The position numbers were made by a program, and so were the translations under genes. From contig NC_090290.1 in NCBI RefSeq assembly GCF_037392515.1, positions 32,571,753-32,635,752 on the forward strand: a stretch of 64,000 bases of DNA. Direction: 5' to 3'. Positions 34,901 through 58,096 of this stretch are shown in pieces (positions within the stretch are counted from its first letter, which is position 1; every line of letters begins with the position of its first letter). This DNA is from Haliotis asinina. Taxonomy: Eukaryota; Mollusca; Gastropoda; Lepetellida; Haliotidae. Below the pieces are notes generated by a model. That model was given only the letters and a program-made list of their open reading frames with translations. It was not told the DNA's origin and searched no databases.

Positions 34901-37900
34901 TGCGTCCAGGGTATAGTGGAGACTTATCGGAACGTATACCCTGGAGATATCGAGGATGCCCACATGCCAACTGGCTATGTTATCTTGAGAGAATACTATA
35001 TATATCCTATCTGGGAAGAAAAAGCAACAAATTGTTATTCACAGGCAACTATTAAAATTCTGTTGTGCTAATCAGAAAAATCTAAAACCAGAAAATGAAA
35101 TCATGTTAAGACCTGATCTGTCCTAACAGCTGCAACTAGTCATATCAAGTGCCATAGTTGTTAGCACCTGCAATTTACAGAGAAAGTGTAACCCAAAATT
35201 TAACATATATTGCATTTGACCATTTTCTGATGTTTGATGAGTTTATGAGATCTGCATGATCTGGTTTACAGACTACACACAGGTTTGTCACTGCTTGTAT
35301 CTGGTTGCTTACCCTTCTTGCTAACTTGACACTTATGTCTGAGATTGTTTAATTCATCCTCATGATCCTTCTTCTTCTCTGGAAATACGTAAAGAAGGAT
35401 TTGAGCTCACAACAAAAAACATGAACTACAGAAACTGCATTGTGATTTCAGTGGGAACAGATAAGTAACTTTCTGAATAAAATGAAAGTTTACCCTTATC
35501 CTGACTCATGTTTATTATGCTTATCTACACCCTCTGTGTGAAGATAGTGGAACACTTGAAATACCTTGAAGTTCTAACTGAAGCAGACATACAATACACT
35601 CACCCATCAAGAGCCTCCCTTTCCTGCCAATATGGTCATATGACCAGCCATCCTGGCCACACTCTCCTCATTTCAGTAGCCCAACTCAAGAATTACTGTG
35701 AATATAGCGCTGATAAGGGGTGGTTGGGAGGGCTTGGCATCACGAGTCAGGATAAGTATTAAATATCAGTCTTATTCAGAAAATTACATTGTTTTCCTGA
35801 TCATGACTCATGCTGATTATACTTCCAGAATCCGACGGACAGAAACAGTGGTGGGTCAGGCCACTCTAGATTCTGTTGACTTCCATATAAGTATATTCTG
35901 TACTTCCCCGTGGTCATGTTCTTCCAATATACATCTGTGCAATGGGAGGCGATCACATCCAGTCAAACTTGTCTTCTTTTGAAGCATTCGTTGACTGGAA
36001 CATGATATGTAGATATGATATATCAGCTGGCATCCCACTATAGTCCATTTTGAGTCAGAAACGGACCAATGAATTGCAACTTTTATCATTGTACAAAATT
36101 GCCACATAAATATAAATAGTACACGTTTATCATTTACAAATACCCAACAGCTTTCTTATATTTGAACATTTCTGGACTCCACCAAAAAAGTTGTTTAAGA
36201 AACTACAAGTATCATCATTGAAAACGCAAAAGTTTTTATCTGTCACAGCGGGGTGACACCACAGAAACGGAACATCCAGTCATGGCAGAGGACAATCTCA
36301 AAATCTATTTCGGGAGACCTGTTAGTTCCTTTTCTGACGTAGTGTCATAGTCACGACTTAAGGGATGACAAGTGGTGCCGCAGTTGCCTGTTGTACGCCA
36401 TACCAAGACCAGTAACCTTTTCAATGACGTTAGCTACCTTGTTGACACAGTTTTGCCAAGTTTCAGTCGTGATTTTGTTAAGGGATTCAATAACCAAAAC
36501 CTCTGTGTCACACAACCTAAAAGTTGTGTTTGATCTGGCAGCATCTCTTTTGACAATATCCCACATTATTTCAATGGGATTAAGGTCACAGGGATAGGGT
36601 GGAAATCGCCTAATATCATGACCCTTACTTTTTACGTAACTGTCAACTTTGTAGAAAGGTTCACCTTTGTGGGTTTTTATGATCTGAACCAATGCCATAC
36701 TGAATTGATTACAGCTATCATCTCTAGGTGGTTGATATGCTGAATGCATTCCTACTGTCATCTCGTTTAGGTGAGCACCCCGACCTTGTAGTAATGCATG
36801 TACTCAGGGATGGTTGTTGTAGACCAGCACTAGTAAATAGGTCCCTGCGGAGACATTTGATATGTGAGTCCACCATAGTAGATATGTAGTGGTAGAGGTG
36901 ACTTGTCTCATCATGCACTTGAATGCTGTCATCCAGGTTGAAGGCGTTGTGAAGTAGCCGCAGATATAGGTAAGTGACTATTGGTTTGGTGACACGAGTA
37001 AACAGCCATGGAGCCAAAAATATTCCAGATAGTAGAACCATCCATTGGTAGTGCTGACCGTTGAATAGGAAGTGCAGATATTTCCTGGGGTCCGGATGTC
37101 AGCTAGTTTGTCTTGTTGATCCCTGGCATACACAAAGATCGCTGGGTGTCTTGTGCGCGGTAGTGTTGCCTCTTGTGGGATCCTGTCGTAGGATGAGATC
37201 GTTGTTCAGAAGTCCCCAATTCCTCCAGTAGCAATGTACACATCAACCCACTCATCGAGGTTGTACACGAATGACAGGGGGTGGAAGGCTCCCGTTGTTC
37301 CAAATCTGAACTTCAGGGCTTTCCTCCTGTAGCACTCCTGGCAGTGTGTCCTGTTCCATGTGAGCACCTGTTTCCTCCAGTTGAGCGACAAAATGAGCCC
37401 TTGCTCAATGAACCCCCGAGAACTTTAACTTCTTGGAGTAACACTGAGAAGTCTGCTTGAAGACAGTAGTTAAAGTGTCGATCAACTTCATCATCATTAC
37501 TTCCTCAAGTCCCAAGTAACGGCTTGAGCAGCATCCTACCATTCTACCATTGGATACCTTGGATGCTGACCAGGGAGTTCTATACAAGGGTTTAGTAAAG
37601 CTGTCACCCCAAGATGACCCTGACAGTAGAGATTGTTGGCGAAATAAATTCAATCCTGCAGACATCGAGGGTAGATGCTCTGGAATGAATTGTTGATCCT
37701 TCTTCTAAGTCATAACTGCAGAGAGGATCATCCTTTCTTCATTCTCCAAGTTGTTGAACTTGGAGATGAGAGTCTCGTTGATAGTGGTTGTATTCAGCTG
37801 AGCCAGTCGCTAAGCCTTCACTTTGTAGGATCTACTGCGAGTCTCATTGATGAGCTTGTATGATGCGTCTACTTTGGGTGCTTTCATAAAGGGCACCTTA

Positions 37901-52661: not shown

Positions 52662-53131
52662 AGATGATTTCTCACTTTAAACAAAAGTAAACCAGACATA
52701 GTGAAATTAATATTTCGAATCCACGTAATTTTATCTTGTCAGTTGAAAATTTAAGTCTTAGAATTTTATTCAGCAAAGGATAAAAGTTGTTTACCAAACG
52801 ATCATAAATTGAAATCGTTATCACTGGTTCGCATTGCAAGGGGGTAAGCGCAGCAGTTTGAACTTTGAAACTAGAGCACTTGAGGCACGTGATGAGCGTT
52901 AACTTAGACCAACCCAAATTCTTCTCGGCGTTTTATTTAATGTGCATACCCCCTTGTAATACAAACAAAGAAAGTGATTTGAAATTATGATCGTTTGTTA
53001 AACAACTTTCATCCTAAGTTGAATACAATTCTGAGAATTAAATGTTCAGTTGGCAAGGTAAAATTATAAGAATTTGCGATCTTAATTTCACTTTATTCGA
53101 TTTACTCTTTTGTTTAAAGAGACATTCATCT
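52662..53131. mobile_element. Foldback/MITE-like element with ~190-bp imperfect TIRs
   Basis: The left arm from AGATGATTTCTCACTTTAAA through AAAAGTTGTTTACCAAACGATCATAA to about 52,850 is matched, inverted, by about 52,930-53,131 (TTATGATCGTTTGTTAAACAACTTT, CTCTTTTGTTTAAAGAGACA). By eye the arms are well conserved but imperfect, with a ~80-base spacer. No coding capacity. It ends about 360 bases before the large palindrome. Confidence 0.8.
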
Positions 53132-53483: not shown

Positions 53484-53489
53484 TCTCTG
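53484..53489. repeat. Left candidate target-site duplication TCTCTG
   Basis: TCTCTG immediately precedes AGTAGTATAGGG, the outer end of the palindrome. The same six bases occur at the other end (58,091-58,096). One base at each side overlaps the inverted-repeat match. Confidence 0.65.
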
Positions 53490-53572
53490 AGTAGTATAGG
53501 GAATGGTGAGAAAAACCGGTAGCGGGTACACTTTGCTCAGAAGCTTCGGAGTATAGCTAATTCTGCTACCAG

Positions 53573-53660
53573 CATATATATTCAACAAGACCCTTTCGAT
53601 AAGACCACTTTTCGGCTGCTCCCAATTACTCCCAATTATAGTGTATTCCCAATTAGAGCT
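53573..53660 (+). promoter_or_regulatory. Promoter region of outer gene, left arm, with three TCCCAATTA repeats
   Basis: CATATATATTC at 53,573-53,583 is TATA-like. TCCCAATTA occurs at 53,620-53,628, 53,630-53,638 and 53,647-53,655, directly before the first ATG. The spacing (10 then 17 bases) is suggestive of protein binding sites. Confidence 0.45.
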
Positions 53661-54848
53661 ATGCGGGTACATAGACATAGAAATATGCCAGGAACCAAGC
53701 TCTCGCGAGAAGCATATACCGAGATCCGATCGGGTCGTTTGTCCATTCGGGAAGCGAAGAGGAAGTATCACATATCGCAAGCTCGATACACACGAATCCG
53801 AGGTGGTATAGACAAGCCCACAACTCCCGATATATCCGAAGACTTGGAGGCCCTGCTGCAGAAGTGTCGCCCTATGTTGCTTTCCGACCGAGAGAAACAA
53901 ATCCTGGAGCAATCGGGACACACCTTCTACGAACACTACCAGATCCCCAAACAGTTTCTCGAACTCTACTTGCTGTGCTTTCGTCCACTAGTAGAAGCCG
54001 GCAAAATAGTTGATTTCGTCTACATCTGCCCACCCAACCAATTTCGACCCTCGGCGGGCAAACTCCGAATCATTCTCGCTGATAACTGCTATCCGGGCCC
54101 CAAGGACAGACACAACCGATGCACCGACTGCCTAGCCACTCTATCGGAACTGCCTGCTCTCTTCGGACCCGACAACTCTACGTGCAAGTGTGGTGCCACC
54201 GACCACTGCGTCGACAGCAAGAAATGCATTCTCTGGGAACAGAAAGCGATAGACTACACACCCCAGGAGCGACTTCCACTCGAGGTTCCAGAAGAGATCG
54301 AGGTTGGCAGCTGTTGTGTGAATATAGAGAACCTATACGACAACGCCTGCCTTTTCTGGAGCATAAAATACGCACTCCTCATCAACAAATTGATGGACTG
54401 TTGTACGTGTAAGGAGAAAGAGTCTTGTATCTTATGGCGGTTATCGGAGAAAGCAGAGGTACCACAGGGGCGGGGTAATATTTGGCATACCCCATTACCC
54501 GACTATGGTGGACCCAAGCATATGGAAGTAGCACCCCCTCCATGTAGCGAACACAAAAAAGCTGCGAACGTCCCAGAAGGAGTCTACTTATGCAAAAAGT
54601 TTGCTGTAGCGGGACACGAAGGGAAGAACCGGCTGTTATTGCTACTCGATCCCCCGACTGGGGAAACGATTCCAGTCTATGGCTACAAGATACGAGAAAC
54701 GATTCGGGCTGCCGGGGGAATAGAACGCCTACGGTTAGTGCGGGAACCGTTTCTATGCAAGCTCGGTAAAATCTGCTACTCACCTATATCAGAAAAGAAA
54801 GACGATAGAGAAATCGAATTACTGCTTCCAGACATTGGACGAGAATAG
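53661..54848 (+). CDS. Outer gene of palindrome, left arm: HTH-like plus Cys-rich protein, 395 aa
   Basis: Function unknown. Residues 14-48 (KLSREAYTEIRSGRLSIREA onward) look like a recombinase/homeodomain-like helix-turn-helix and resemble the N-terminus of the inner gene. Residues 143-189 and 218-256 are Cys-rich. Two parts end alike: C-K-C-x5-C-x5-C-ILW (175-192) and C-T-C-x5-C-ILW (248-259), plausibly zinc-binding. No membrane segment is seen. A second in-frame ATG at 53,685 (MPGTKLSR) aligns with the inner gene start (MPPRRDLS) and may be the real start, giving 387 aa. The frame is intact, and the right-arm copy differs by one synonymous base. Its 3' end faces the inner gene across a 138-bp gap. 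I cannot assign a family. Confidence 0.8.
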   Translation: MRVHRHRNMPGTKLSREAYTEIRSGRLSIREAKRKYHISQARYTRIRGGIDKPTTPDISEDLEALLQKCRPMLLSDREKQILEQSGHTFYEHYQIPKQFLELYLLCFRPLVEAGKIVDFVYICPPNQFRPSAGKLRIILADNCYPGPKDRHNRCTDCLATLSELPALFGPDNSTCKCGATDHCVDSKKCILWEQKAIDYTPQERLPLEVPEEIEVGSCCVNIENLYDNACLFWSIKYALLINKLMDCCTCKEKESCILWRLSEKAEVPQGRGNIWHTPLPDYGGPKHMEVAPPPCSEHKKAANVPEGVYLCKKFAVAGHEGKNRLLLLLDPPTGETIPVYGYKIRETIRAAGGIERLRLVREPFLCKLGKICYSPISEKKDDREIELLLPDIGRE

Positions 54849-54986
54849 GTCCGGCAGCTCGCCTAGTATTTTGGTAGATGCAGTCGTGGGCTTACAAAGG
54901 ACGAATACTTATCTAGGCTAGTTTTTCGTATTCCAACTGCTTTTCGTGGTACCCTACTACTTTTTTCCCTCAAAAAAAACAACACT
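54849..54986. other. Gap between convergent genes, left arm
   Basis: 138 bp between the 3' ends of the outer and inner genes. It contains CCCTACTACTTTTTTCCCTC and an A-run (CAAAAAAAACAAC). No AATAAA seen on either strand, so 3'-end signals must lie in the coding parts or be non-canonical. Identical in the right arm (56,595-56,732). Confidence 0.5.
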
Positions 54987-55652
54987 CTACTGCATAATGA
55001 AGGGATCCCCACGTTTCGTCTTGGGTGTTTCTACCTTCTCGGTCGGTGTGTGCACTGATTTGCTGTGCTTCCAGGTCTTGTAGACGACCTTCCAGAGAAA
55101 AACAGCGGCTAGCGAAAGGTAGGTCCACCTTTGGGCTGTTTCTAGTATCTGCCGCACCTTCTGAATATCCAGATGGGTCTCTTCTTGTTCCTCCTCAACG
55201 TTTTCTATTTCCTCTTCCTCATTGTCCTTATCCAGCATCGACAAGATGTCGACCAACAAATTCGTGGTTTGCTCCATATGAGCCGACAACGTATTCGTGG
55301 TTTGTTCCAAACGAGCCGACATCGCTGCAGTTTGCTTCACACTAGCCTCTAGCCTCCCCAAGCGGTTGTAGAAGTCCTGGATGGTGGACACAGTCGGCTC
55401 TGCAGCAGGCAATACGCTCTCGCTAGGGGGTAAGATGGCCGCAGGCAATACGCTGCCGGCAGACGTCTCACTAGCGGGAGCAGGCAATGCGTCTGTGCTG
55501 GTCGGAGGTTCTACAGCAGGCTCTCGCCATATGTCGTAGAGTCTTGTGGATCCAATACCGAAGCGCTTTTTGACCTCGCTTGCTGGGAGCACCCCTCGAA
55601 GGGAGCGTATTTCTTGGACCTTTTCCGAAGACAAATCTCTTCTTGGTGGCAT
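54987..55652 (-). CDS. Inner gene of palindrome, left arm: HTH-like, coiled-coil, membrane-segment protein, 221 aa
   Basis: Function unknown. Residues 7-43 (DLSSEKVQEIRSLRGVLPAS onward to RLYDIWRE) form a helix-turn-helix-like unit similar to residues 14-48 of the outer gene. Residues 45-88 are a Pro/Ala/Ser linker with repeated LPA. Residues 92-140 are helical with an 11-residue near-repeat (RLEQTTNTLSA / HMEQTTNLLVD), probably coiled coil. Residues 144-158 are almost all acidic. Residues 177-191 (TYLSLAAVFLWKVVY) are hydrophobic and could be a short membrane anchor, followed by a basic tail. This layout suggests a DNA-binding protein tethered to a membrane, which is inference. The start lies behind a TATA-like region in the palindrome centre. 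Confidence 0.78.
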   Translation of the reverse strand: MPPRRDLSSEKVQEIRSLRGVLPASEVKKRFGIGSTRLYDIWREPAVEPPTSTDALPAPASETSAGSVLPAAILPPSESVLPAAEPTVSTIQDFYNRLGRLEASVKQTAAMSARLEQTTNTLSAHMEQTTNLLVDILSMLDKDNEEEEIENVEEEQEETHLDIQKVRQILETAQRWTYLSLAAVFLWKVVYKTWKHSKSVHTPTEKVETPKTKRGDPFIMQ

Positions 55653-55740
55653 GGGGTGTTTTTCCTGGGAATATATATATATACCATACTTCCTACTTGT
55701 CTATATAGGAACCAATCCTCTCCCAGGAAACTTCTAATAA
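55653..55740 (-). promoter_or_regulatory. Left half of divergent central promoter
   Basis: Reading toward the inner gene: TTTCCTGGGA (complement of TCCCAGGAAA at 55,721-55,730), CCTATATAG (TATA-like), then TATATATATATA and TCCCAGGAAA (plus-strand TTTCCTGGGA at 55,661-55,670), then ATG. The two 10-bp motifs are exact inverted copies 50 bp apart, bracketing the TATA-like boxes. Confidence 0.55.
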
Positions 55741-55840
55741 TACTTAGCAATGCTTAGCAATGCTTAGTAATGCTTAGCAAATGCTTAGTATTATTAAGCA
55801 TTGCTAAGCATTACTAAGCATTGCTAAGCATTGCTAAGTA
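55741..55840. repeat. Central decamer array and palindrome centre
   Basis: Left of centre, TTAGCAATGC-type decamers run four times (ACTTAGCAATGCTTAGCAAT, GCTTAGTAATGCTTAGCAA). Right of centre the same 40 bp appears inverted (55,801-55,840). The 20 bases between (ATGCTTAGTATTATTAAGCA) are not a continuation of the large palindrome; a smaller TGCTTA/TAAGCA hairpin sits inside. The layout resembles an iteron cluster, as in replication origins or protein-binding control regions. Confidence 0.7.
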
Positions 55841-55928
55841 TTATTAGAAGTTTCCTGGGAGAGGATTGGTTCCTATATAGACAAGTAGGAAGTATGGTAT
55901 ATATATATATTCCCAGGAAAAACACCCC
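55841..55928 (+). promoter_or_regulatory. Right half of divergent central promoter
   Basis: Mirror of 55,653-55,740: TTTCCTGGGA (55,851-55,860), CCTATATAG (55,872-55,880), TATATATATATA ending near 55,910, TCCCAGGAAA (55,911-55,920), then ATG at 55,929. Confidence 0.55.
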
Positions 55929-56594
55929 ATGCCACCAAGAAGAGATTTGTCTTCGGAAAAGGTCCAAGAAATACGCTCCCTTCGAGGGGTGCTCCCAGCA
56001 AGCGAGGTCAAAAAGCGCTTCGGTATTGGATCCACAAGACTCTACGACATATGGCGAGAGCCTGCTGTAGAACCTCCGACCAGCACAGACGCATTGCCTG
56101 CTCCCGCTAGTGAGACGTCTGCCGGCAGCGTATTGCCTGCGGCCATCTTACCCCCTAGCGAGAGCGTATTGCCTGCTGCAGAGCCGACTGTGTCCACCAT
56201 CCAGGACTTCTACAACCGCTTGGGGAGGCTAGAGGCTAGTGTGAAGCAAACTGCAGCGATGTCGGCTCGTTTGGAACAAACCACGAATACGTTGTCGGCT
56301 CATATGGAGCAAACCACGAATTTGTTGGTCGACATCTTGTCGATGCTGGATAAGGACAATGAGGAAGAGGAAATAGAAAACGTTGAGGAGGAACAAGAAG
56401 AGACCCATCTGGATATTCAGAAGGTGCGGCAGATACTAGAAACAGCCCAAAGGTGGACCTACCTTTCGCTAGCCGCTGTTTTTCTCTGGAAGGTCGTCTA
56501 CAAGACCTGGAAGCACAGCAAATCAGTGCACACACCGACCGAGAAGGTAGAAACACCCAAGACGAAACGTGGGGATCCCTTCATTATGCAGTAG
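55929..56594 (+). CDS. Inner gene of palindrome, right arm, 221 aa
   Basis: Exact mirror copy of the 54,987-55,652 gene; the encoded protein is identical. Same HTH-like start, helical repeat, acidic stretch and hydrophobic segment. It is divergent from the left copy, with 276 bp between start codons. Confidence 0.78.
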   Translation: MPPRRDLSSEKVQEIRSLRGVLPASEVKKRFGIGSTRLYDIWREPAVEPPTSTDALPAPASETSAGSVLPAAILPPSESVLPAAEPTVSTIQDFYNRLGRLEASVKQTAAMSARLEQTTNTLSAHMEQTTNLLVDILSMLDKDNEEEEIENVEEEQEETHLDIQKVRQILETAQRWTYLSLAAVFLWKVVYKTWKHSKSVHTPTEKVETPKTKRGDPFIMQ

Positions 56595-56732
56595 AGTGTT
56601 GTTTTTTTTGAGGGAAAAAAGTAGTAGGGTACCACGAAAAGCAGTTGGAATACGAAAAACTAGCCTAGATAAGTATTCGTCCTTTGTAAGCCCACGACTG
56701 CATCTACCAAAATACTAGGCGAGCTGCCGGAC

Positions 56733-57920
56733 CTATTCTCGTCCAATGTCTGGAAGCAGTAATTCGATTTCTCTATCGTCTTTCTTTTCTGATATAGGTG
56801 AGTAGCAGATTTTACCGAGCTTGCATAGAAACGGTTCCCGCACTAACCGTAGGCGTTCTATTCCCCCGGCAGCCCGAATCGTTTCTCGTATCTTGTAGCC
56901 ATAGACTGGAATCGTTTCCCCAGTCGGGGGATCGAGTAGCAATAACAGCCGGTTCTTCCCTTCGTGTCCCGCTACAGCAAACTTTTTGCATAAGTAGACT
57001 CCTTCTGGGACGTTCGCAGCCTTTTTGTGTTCGCTACATGGAGGGGGTGCTACTTCCATATGCTTGGGTCCACCATAGTCGGGTAATGGGGTATGCCAAA
57101 TATTACCCCGCCCCTGTGGTACCTCTGCTTTCTCCGATAACCGCCATAAGATACAAGACTCTTTCTCCTTACACGTACAACAGTCCATCAATTTGTTGAT
57201 GAGGAGTGCGTATTTTATGCTCCAGAAAAGGCAGGCGTTGTCGTATAGGTTCTCTATATTCACACAACAGCTGCCAACCTCGATCTCTTCTGGAACCTCG
57301 AGTGGAAGTCGCTCCTGGGGTGTGTAGTCTATCGCTTTCTGTTCCCAGAGAATGCATTTCTTGCTGTCGACGCAGTGGTCGGTGGCACCACACTTGCACG
57401 TAGAGTTGTCGGGTCCGAAGAGAGCAGGCAGTTCCGATAGAGTGGCTAGGCAGTCGGTGCATCGGTTGTGTCTGTCCTTGGGGCCCGGATAGCAGTTATC
57501 AGCGAGAATGATTCGGAGTTTGCCCGCCGAGGGTCGAAATTGGTTGGGTGGGCAGATGTAGACGAAATCAACTATTTTGCCGGCTTCTACTAGTGGACGA
57601 AAGCACAGCAAGTAGAGTTCGAGAAACTGTTTGGGGATCTGGTAGTGTTCGTAGAAGGTGTGTCCCGATTGCTCCAGGATTTGTTTCTCTCGGTCGGAAA
57701 GCAACATAGGGCGACACTTCTGCAGCAGGGCCTCCAAGTCTTCGGATATATCGGGAGTTGTGGGCTTGTCTATACCACCTCGGATTCGTGTGTATCGAGC
57801 TTGCGATATGTGATACTTCCTCTTCGCTTCCCGAATGGACAAACGACCCGATCGGATCTCGGTATATGCTTCTCGCGAGAGCTTGGTTCCTGGCATATTT
57901 CTATGTCTATGTACCCGCAT
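56733..57920 (-). CDS. Outer gene of palindrome, right arm, 395 aa
   Basis: Mirror copy of 53,661-54,848; the protein is identical. The only base difference found (57,021) changes a Lys codon AAA to AAG near residue 300. The alternative start at residue 9 is also conserved (ATG at 57,896-57,894). Reads outward-in, converging on the right inner gene. Confidence 0.8.
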   Translation of the reverse strand: MRVHRHRNMPGTKLSREAYTEIRSGRLSIREAKRKYHISQARYTRIRGGIDKPTTPDISEDLEALLQKCRPMLLSDREKQILEQSGHTFYEHYQIPKQFLELYLLCFRPLVEAGKIVDFVYICPPNQFRPSAGKLRIILADNCYPGPKDRHNRCTDCLATLSELPALFGPDNSTCKCGATDHCVDSKKCILWEQKAIDYTPQERLPLEVPEEIEVGSCCVNIENLYDNACLFWSIKYALLINKLMDCCTCKEKESCILWRLSEKAEVPQGRGNIWHTPLPDYGGPKHMEVAPPPCSEHKKAANVPEGVYLCKKFAVAGHEGKNRLLLLLDPPTGETIPVYGYKIRETIRAAGGIERLRLVREPFLCKLGKICYSPISEKKDDREIELLLPDIGRE

Positions 57921-58008
57921 AGCTCTAATTGGGAATACACTATAATTGGGAGTAATTGGGAGCAGCCGAAAAGTGGTCTTATCGAAAGGGTCTTGTTGAA
58001 TATATATG
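57921..58008 (-). promoter_or_regulatory. Promoter region of outer gene, right arm
   Basis: Mirror of 53,573-53,660: TAATTGGGA at 57,926-57,934, 57,943-57,951 and 57,953-57,961, and a TATA-like GAATATATATG near 58,000. Confidence 0.45.
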
Positions 58009-58090
58009 CTGGTAGCAGAATTAGCTATACTCCGAAGCTTCTGAGCAAAGTGTACCCGCTACCGGTTTTTCTCACCATTCCCTATACTAC

Positions 58091-58096
58091 TCTCTG
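58091..58096. repeat. Right candidate target-site duplication TCTCTG
   Basis: Follows CCCTATACTAC at the right end of the palindrome; identical to 53,484-53,489. Confidence 0.65.

Follow-up and report, generated by a model that had tools for sequence, protein, structure and literature searches.

A gene-bearing palindromic element with Polinton-type ends, probably a Polinton satellite, in the genome of Haliotis asinina

Main finding

A stretch of 64,000 nucleotides from the gastropod Haliotis asinina (NCBI RefSeq assembly GCF_037392515.1, contig NC_090290.1, positions 32,571,753 to 32,635,752 of the forward strand), here called the window, contains a near-perfect palindrome of 4,602 bp which carries two mirrored copies of a pair of genes and has many further copies in the same genome. 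Its ends are of the type known from Polinton (Maverick) elements and are shared with elements of about 14 kb in this genome, its insertions are flanked by 5-bp target-site duplications, and in copies with two near-full arms these are nearly equal. The element is probably a gene-bearing, self-complementary satellite of Polintons that is replicated through a folded-back strand and integrated by enzymes supplied in trans. It is an even question whether it also stands for a new class of mobile genome, that is a persisting, fully self-complementary satellite whose hereditary unit is the single 2.3-kb arm, both arms being rebuilt in each cycle from one strand.

Anatomy of the palindrome

The element occupies positions 53490..58091 (coordinates without a contig name refer to the window), limits which were set by comparing the arms with each other and by the target-site duplication CTCTG, read in the flanks at 53485..53489 and 58092..58096. 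A preliminary description of this DNA, made from the letters alone, had recognised the palindrome but drawn it from 53489 to 58092. Mirrored sequence does extend that far (53489-55780 and 55801-58092, 2,292 nt on each side of a 20-nt centre), but the outermost base pair belongs to the target duplication, and the arms of the element proper lie at 53490..55780 (+) and 55801..58091 (-). The single difference between the arms and the four intact frames that it had reported are also present. The difference, an A at 54560 against a G in the mirror copy at 57021, is silent because both translations of the longer frame agree. Each arm encodes a 395-aa protein (open frames at 53661..54848, +, and 56733..57920, -) and a 221-aa protein (54987..55652, -, and 55929..56594, +).

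The terminal 17 bp at the left end (53490..53506, +) read AGTAGTATAGGGAATGG, the right end (58075..58091) gives the same sequence on the minus strand, and these 17 bp are common to the elements of about 14 kb. The asymmetric centre of 20 nt, ATGCTTAGTATTATTAAGCA (55781..55800), contains a 7-nt loop, GTATTAT (ATAATAC on the minus strand), at 55788..55794 between TTA and TAA, and an array of repeats of about 10 bp (AGCATTGCTA / AATGCTTAGC) surrounds the axis at 55746..55842. Tandem Repeats Finder listed tandem repeats inside the element only in these central ~100 bp, and an Rfam search found nothing above noise. The G+C content is 48.8% in the element and 39.0% in the rest of the window.

A dispersed family with regular target duplications

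The genome searched comprises 1.143 Gb in 159 contigs (here named C1, C4 and so on), and all genome-wide copy counts are lower bounds, the searches having scored only part of their candidates. A search with one arm gave at least 76 matches (34 of 398 candidates scored) and a search with the 395-aa protein at least 108 (105 of 719 scored). Counted from the table of matches, at least 83 stop-free rows cover the whole protein (residues 1-395), and these come from at least 44 loci on 15 contigs, so that the other copies which the preliminary description had proposed to look for exist and the palindrome is not a single oddity. Among the 44 loci, 36 have exactly two 395-aa genes facing inward, one cluster (C4:29.29 Mb) has four, and seven have one, several of these seven with a partial partner. 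The 221-aa protein gave a similar picture (at least 170 matches, 150 of 308 candidates scored, further copies being partial); most full-length rows among the matches listed have no stop, and that at C6:65660641 has one.

Two side observations concern the layout of copies. At C4:29291818-29300713 four arms follow one another in the orientation +, -, -, -, with gaps of about 25 nt or less, which is possibly a concatemer. At C15:25967243, C1:11599591 and C12:48166436 pairs of 221-aa genes represent additional copies with no listed 395-aa match, perhaps because the 395-aa gene is lacking there or was not scored.

Twenty loci and the window, thus 21 copies, were read in detail, and locus L043 was read in addition. 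The choice of loci favoured copies with one full arm, and they are therefore not a fair sample of damage. Where both arms are near full, the element measures 4.4-4.7 kb. In L022, L027, L032, L037, L040 and L043 part of one arm is lost, a different part in each, with one full arm and both ends kept, and in L024 one of the 221-aa genes is cut at 167 aa.

An exact 5-bp target duplication is present in all 20 copies with both ends read, in 19 different sequences; L025, in which the right end was not recognised, is excluded from the 20. The ends follow the general form AGTAGTATA(GGG/CAC)AATGG, with AGTAGTATAGGGAATGG in 16 of these copies and AGTAGTATACACAATGG in four, and the (AGT)2 / (ACT)2 end motif is present in all of them. 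L043 (976-4937) has (AGT)3 at its left end and (AGT)2 at its right, with AATTC outside on both sides when read by eye (the automatic scan gave none); the extra terminal triplet would be the expected trace of slippage in a jumping-back start of replication. The earlier suggestion of a transposon consisting solely of long, gene-bearing inverted repeats comes close, the element belonging to a mobile family of inverted arms with 5-bp duplications.

Ends shared with Polinton-type elements

In vertebrate Mavericks, according to the accessible text of PMC8097293, the commonest end motif is 5'-(AGT)2//(ACT)2-3', which is linked there to jumping-back in protein-primed replication, and target duplications are of 6 bp. 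In the present genome AGTAGTATANNNAATGG occurs 1,514 times (811 forward, 703 reverse), against 18 times for a reversed control (8 and 10). The pairing analysis was limited to 100 listed places of this motif, all on C1, among which 41 facing pairs less than 25 kb apart were found (median 14,087 bp, with 32 at 13.3-15 kb); two of the 41 are palindromes of 4.6-4.7 kb. In one of the long elements, C1:683702-698052, the terminal repeats measure 365 bp and include one mismatch. CCAGA flanks this element on either side when read by eye, and its right end has matches to DNA_pol_B_2 (1.1e-9) and to the rve integrase (1.6e-10). Among ten more listed pairs of about 14 kb that were selected for reading, eight are flanked by an exact 5-bp duplication, one by a 6-bp duplication and one by no exact duplication (AGTCT/AGCCT), so that nine of the 11 elements have exact 5-bp duplications. 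The three-letter end variants in the ten are GGG (six), TAC (three) and CAC (one), of which GGG and CAC also occur in the palindromes. The palindromes thus have ends in common with a larger Polinton-type element of the same genome, as would be expected of a satellite.

The ~14-kb population deserves notice in its own right, with about 1,500 Polinton end motifs in one genome and the 100 listed on C1 standing mostly in facing pairs about 14 kb apart. It is very large and apparently young, with several end variants (GGG, TAC, CAC, AAT, AAC). Polymerase genes of the same type gave at least 110 matches in the genome (87 of 1,846 candidates scored), most of the listed rows without a stop, and the 2.7 kb read beside such a match on C16 (L050) reached no recognisable Polinton end. 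Two of the polymerase matches, C35:202689 and C44:72763, are reported in open frames of 68,161 and 24,853 aa, lengths that rule out ordinary genes and may reflect repeated sequence, among other causes. At C4:24289193-24307912 two palindrome ends are separated by 18.7 kb, as though a ~14-kb element had landed inside a palindrome.

Arms agree within copies and differ between copies

Of the 21 copies, 15 yielded two near-full arms and six a single arm, 36 arms in total. Within copies, the arms differ over 2,190 sites at no position in eight copies, at one in five, at two in one and at six in one (mean 0.87); between copies the mean is 19.6 differences and the range 3-34 (615 comparisons among the 36 arms). 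In all 15 two-armed copies the nearest neighbour of each arm is its own partner, and substitutions private to one such copy occur in both of its arms 47 times and in a single arm 12 times. Near-equal arms within copies that differ from one another, together with private changes mostly present in both arms, indicate that both arms descend from one template. The contrast between arm identity within copies and divergence between them in effect preserves, in sequence form, the way in which such DNA is copied.

The private substitutions could be classified except for one, which fell in a gap of the reference and was dropped. The 46 both-arm changes comprise 13 non-coding, 17 silent and 16 replacing changes and no stop, and the 12 one-arm changes comprise 6 silent, 5 replacing and 1 stop. 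Both-arm changes show an excess of silent (p=0.007, one-sided binomial) and of non-coding changes (p=0.02, Fisher). The silent excess and the lack of stops fit changes that arose and were sieved before insertion, when they were already in both arms.

The axis follows the same pattern, in that its repeat numbers vary between copies and are mirrored within most. Between TTA and TAA, 13 of the 22 loci examined have the loop ATAATAC/GTATTAT, and seven of these 13 are gap-free palindromes around it out to their ends (with up to 3 mismatches allowed). A one-off copy-back by-product was considered as the origin of the palindrome and is ruled out by the recurrence of this loop and by the palindrome being the standing form of the family.

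Decayed relatives

Older relatives are represented by 17 rows at 50-64% identity among the 395-aa matches scored, 16 of them with internal stops and one, in L042, without. In three of the eight decayed loci read, mirrored arms are kept, at 98% identity over 1,356 nt in L041 (which has the duplication CGCCC/CGCTC, by eye), 84% over 594 nt in L045 and 86% over 226 nt in L047. These mirrored arms imply that the layout is old and that arms drift apart after insertion. L044 and L046 have a single arm with the two genes facing each other, L046 also with a 46-nt inverted repeat near the axis, and in L048 and L049 the 395-aa gene alone was seen, with no second arm. Near-matches to AGTAGTATAGGGA stand near the expected end in L041 and L046 (one change each) and in L047 (three changes, a degree of match that also arises by chance in decayed loci); in L042 and L049 such a near-match, with one change each, lies about 400-500 bp outside the start of the gene.

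Two selected proteins of unrecognised families

Selection was counted in 22 copies, with one arm from each and all segregating sites. The ratio of replacing to silent polymorphism (pN/pS) is 0.50 in the 395-aa gene (24 silent and 27 replacing changes, p=0.0065) and 0.49 in the 221-aa gene (8 silent and 14 replacing, not tested alone), and the silent excess in both genes together has p=0.007. The 395-aa gene is intact in all 83 full-length rows and, as judged from these sequence counts, is under purifying selection.

The 395-aa protein is rich in cysteine, as had been noted, with 21 residues. The 221-aa product had been taken for a membrane-type protein, a reading that hydropathy does not support (best 19-residue Kyte-Doolittle mean 0.99, with no clear transmembrane helix); it has an acidic stretch. 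The description of the gene pair as unrecognised agrees with the searches, which for either protein gave nothing above noise in Pfam (best E 0.015), in PHROGs (best E 0.0058, for a head scaffolding family aligned with the 221-aa protein at residues 101-171), in the PDB by sequence and profile searches, or in a pattern scan of IMG/VR that detects close relatives only. A search of phages and plasmids with the 395-aa protein alone as query likewise gave nothing above noise, and by sequence neither protein could be assigned to a polymerase, integrase or capsid family.

Structure prediction, another step proposed at the outset, gave a model of the 395-aa protein that is poor overall, with a mean predicted local distance difference test score (pLDDT) of 34.9 without an alignment and 49.5 with one. 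Two parts are predicted fairly confidently, a helix-turn-helix at about residues 16-48 and a C-terminal beta-rich part at about 314-367; the Cys-rich middle between them is read from the sequence. The N-terminal part of the 221-aa protein resembles that of the 395-aa protein (35% over 52 residues in a two-sequence comparison uncorrected for composition). Among decayed relatives the residues kept are helix-turn-helix positions and the motifs TDC, DNs.ck and YggPk..eVa.Pp. These features suggest that the element's own proteins may bind DNA and metal. Three copies of TCCCAATTA lie at 53620-53655, immediately upstream of the 395-aa gene, and are a candidate binding site for the helix-turn-helix protein.

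A proposed replication cycle

In the cycle proposed here, the polymerase and terminal protein of a Polinton would start at the AGTAGT ends of the palindrome, jumping back on the AGT repeat, and replication from such an end would displace one strand. Being self-complementary, the displaced strand would fold into a 2.3-kb hairpin, closed by the loop at one end and carrying an ordinary duplex origin at the other. From this single origin, primed synthesis would run round the loop and restore the 4.6-kb duplex. As the arms would lie face to face in the hairpin, mismatches could be repaired or copied back, and the arms would therefore leave each cycle identical. The Polinton integrase would then integrate this duplex at sites staggered by 5 bp. 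The two proteins that the element encodes, with their similar helix-turn-helix-like N-termini, probably bind the terminal or central repeats and so steer the cycle, possibly by recruiting the replication proteins of the helper or by damping the helper.

The preliminary description had considered the snap-back form of a linear, protein-primed or hairpin-ended DNA. The Polinton-type ends agree with that idea, but the palindrome does not represent a larger known genome in folded form, because it shares only 17-19 terminal bp with the ~14-kb elements, no polymerase, integrase or capsid family is recognised in it and the palindrome is its standing form.

If the interpretation as a whole is correct, the element is a Polinton satellite with its own proteins, and if the hairpin cycle is correct its own mirror image serves as the template by which it corrects or re-copies itself. 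Polintons are regarded as standing near the root of many eukaryotic DNA viruses, and the palindrome family provides a means of testing whether their protein-primed replication involves jumping-back. Long perfect palindromes are considered unstable in chromosomes, and a genome that consists of one palindrome is remarkable for its dozens of copies, and for decayed relatives, some with the same layout, despite this presumed instability.

Weighing the satellite reading against its alternatives

Several points weigh against a Polinton satellite with a hairpin stage. The palindrome shares only 17-19 terminal bp with the ~14-kb elements, and the polymerase frame of C1:683702-698052 has one stop in the part read. 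When the scored polymerase matches on C1 (87 of 1,846 candidates scored in the whole genome) were compared by eye with the listed 14-kb intervals none lay inside, so that the link of the ends to polymerase and integrase genes comes from one element. The palindromes have 5-bp duplications against 6 bp in vertebrate Mavericks, although the local ~14-kb elements mostly have 5. Five of the eight decayed loci have no clear second arm, and in L042 both genes are on one strand. The lack of any stop among the 73 segregating changes is weak evidence of selection (p=0.055). Two further points, the state of L041 and the possible activity of the 395-aa protein, lead to alternatives of their own.

The first is that arm identity is kept by gene conversion between inverted repeats in the chromosome and not by regeneration in the life cycle. 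In L041 the frames are broken in both arms, yet the arms are 100% identical over 601 nt and 97-99% identical in their outer portions, the extreme ends having changed more. As the frames are broken alike, either this element moved while broken, helped in trans, or its arms were converted in the chromosome, and conversion could account for the identity. Other old copies have nevertheless drifted, as the values for L045 and L047 show, both-arm changes have the silent excess and absence of stops expected if they had passed through active cycles, and the asymmetric losses in the six damaged copies are all different. Conversion as the general cause is accordingly rather unlikely, although it keeps some weight.

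The second is that the element is autonomous, the Cys-rich helix-turn-helix protein of 395 aa being a transposase or replication enzyme (an initiator, for example) of a new kind and the Polinton-like ends having come by common descent or by capture. Its intact gene in every full-length row, the silent excess in the two genes together and the age of the gene pair in decayed relatives are what would be expected of such an element. On the other side, no catalytic family is found by sequence, the structure model is too weak to judge, and the palindromes and the ~14-kb elements have the GGG and CAC end variants and the 5-bp duplication in common, which makes autonomy unlikely.

It is very doubtful that the palindrome is a Polinton with very long terminal repeats and a lost interior. 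The same terminal 17 bp and 5-bp duplications would follow, but similarity to the terminal inverted repeats of the ~14-kb elements ends at 17-19 bp, no Polinton gene is recognised in the palindrome, and its terminal 171 bp, used as a query, matched palindrome loci only (40 matches, 40 of 89 candidates scored). Among scored matches, as far as their surroundings were seen, there was also no Polinton with the 395- and 221-aa genes in its terminal repeats.

An endogenous hairpin-ended virus of parvovirus type is highly improbable. A size of 4.6 kb and self-complementarity recall parvovirus genomes, and parvoviruses encode an SF3-helicase/HUH replication protein, but neither this protein nor a parvovirus capsid family was matched by Pfam sequence profiles in either product, and the outer ends are AGT repeats, regularly flanked by 5-bp duplications. 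Hairpin chimeras formed in assembly or amplification are a well-known source of large near-perfect palindromes, but with many copies on 15 contigs, different flanks on the two sides, the 5-bp duplication in 20 of 20 and old palindromes with diverged arms, such an origin is very unlikely.

Comparison with known systems

The palindrome resembles Polintons in its (AGT)2//(ACT)2 ends, with the terminal 17 bp of the local ~14-kb elements, in its inverted terminal repeats and in its short duplications of fixed length; it differs in measuring 4.6 kb and not about 14 kb and in being palindromic throughout. It is not a Polinton despite its ends, because the defining genes were not found, neither protein having a Pfam match to protein-primed polymerase B, retrovirus-type integrase, capsid, protease or ATPase. 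Non-autonomous DNA transposons such as miniature inverted-repeat transposable elements (MITEs) also carry the ends of a larger element and occur in many near-identical copies, but the palindrome has two genes of its own (with at least 83 full-length stop-free 395-aa rows) and no similarity to the larger element beyond 17-19 bp.

Transpovirons and other satellites of virus-like elements are small linear DNAs with their own genes and inverted ends that depend on a larger element. The palindrome is like transpovirons in these respects, helper dependence being a presumed feature in its case, whereas they are not palindromic throughout and have other genes and other hosts. Insect Foldback transposons likewise consist mostly of very long inverted repeats. 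Their arms, however, are arrays of short tandem repeats, whereas those of the palindrome carry two genes, end in Polinton-type ends and have tandem repeats only in the central ~100 bp. Self-complementary vectors of adeno-associated virus and snap-back defective genomes of adenovirus fold into a hairpin duplex of half length, but they are engineered or arise as by-products, unlike a persisting family with its own genes. Ginger2/TDD elements, as far as the accessible text of PMC2836005 describes them, share 5-bp duplications (in TDD-4/5) with the palindrome, but have a retrovirus-type integrase, of which none was recognised in the palindrome, and Ginger ends follow TGTNR and not AGTAGT.

In the literature consulted, which included few subscription papers, there was no account of a palindromic transposon carrying genes, nor of a satellite of Polintons.

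Other features of the window

Just left of the palindrome, at 52667-53125, lies an inverted repeat of 163 nt with 74% complementarity and a spacing of 133 nt, perhaps an old small transposon. A fragment of a DDE_3 (Tc1/mariner-type) transposase was matched at 36351-36803 (-) with an E value of 2.7e-6, slightly below the Pfam cut-off.

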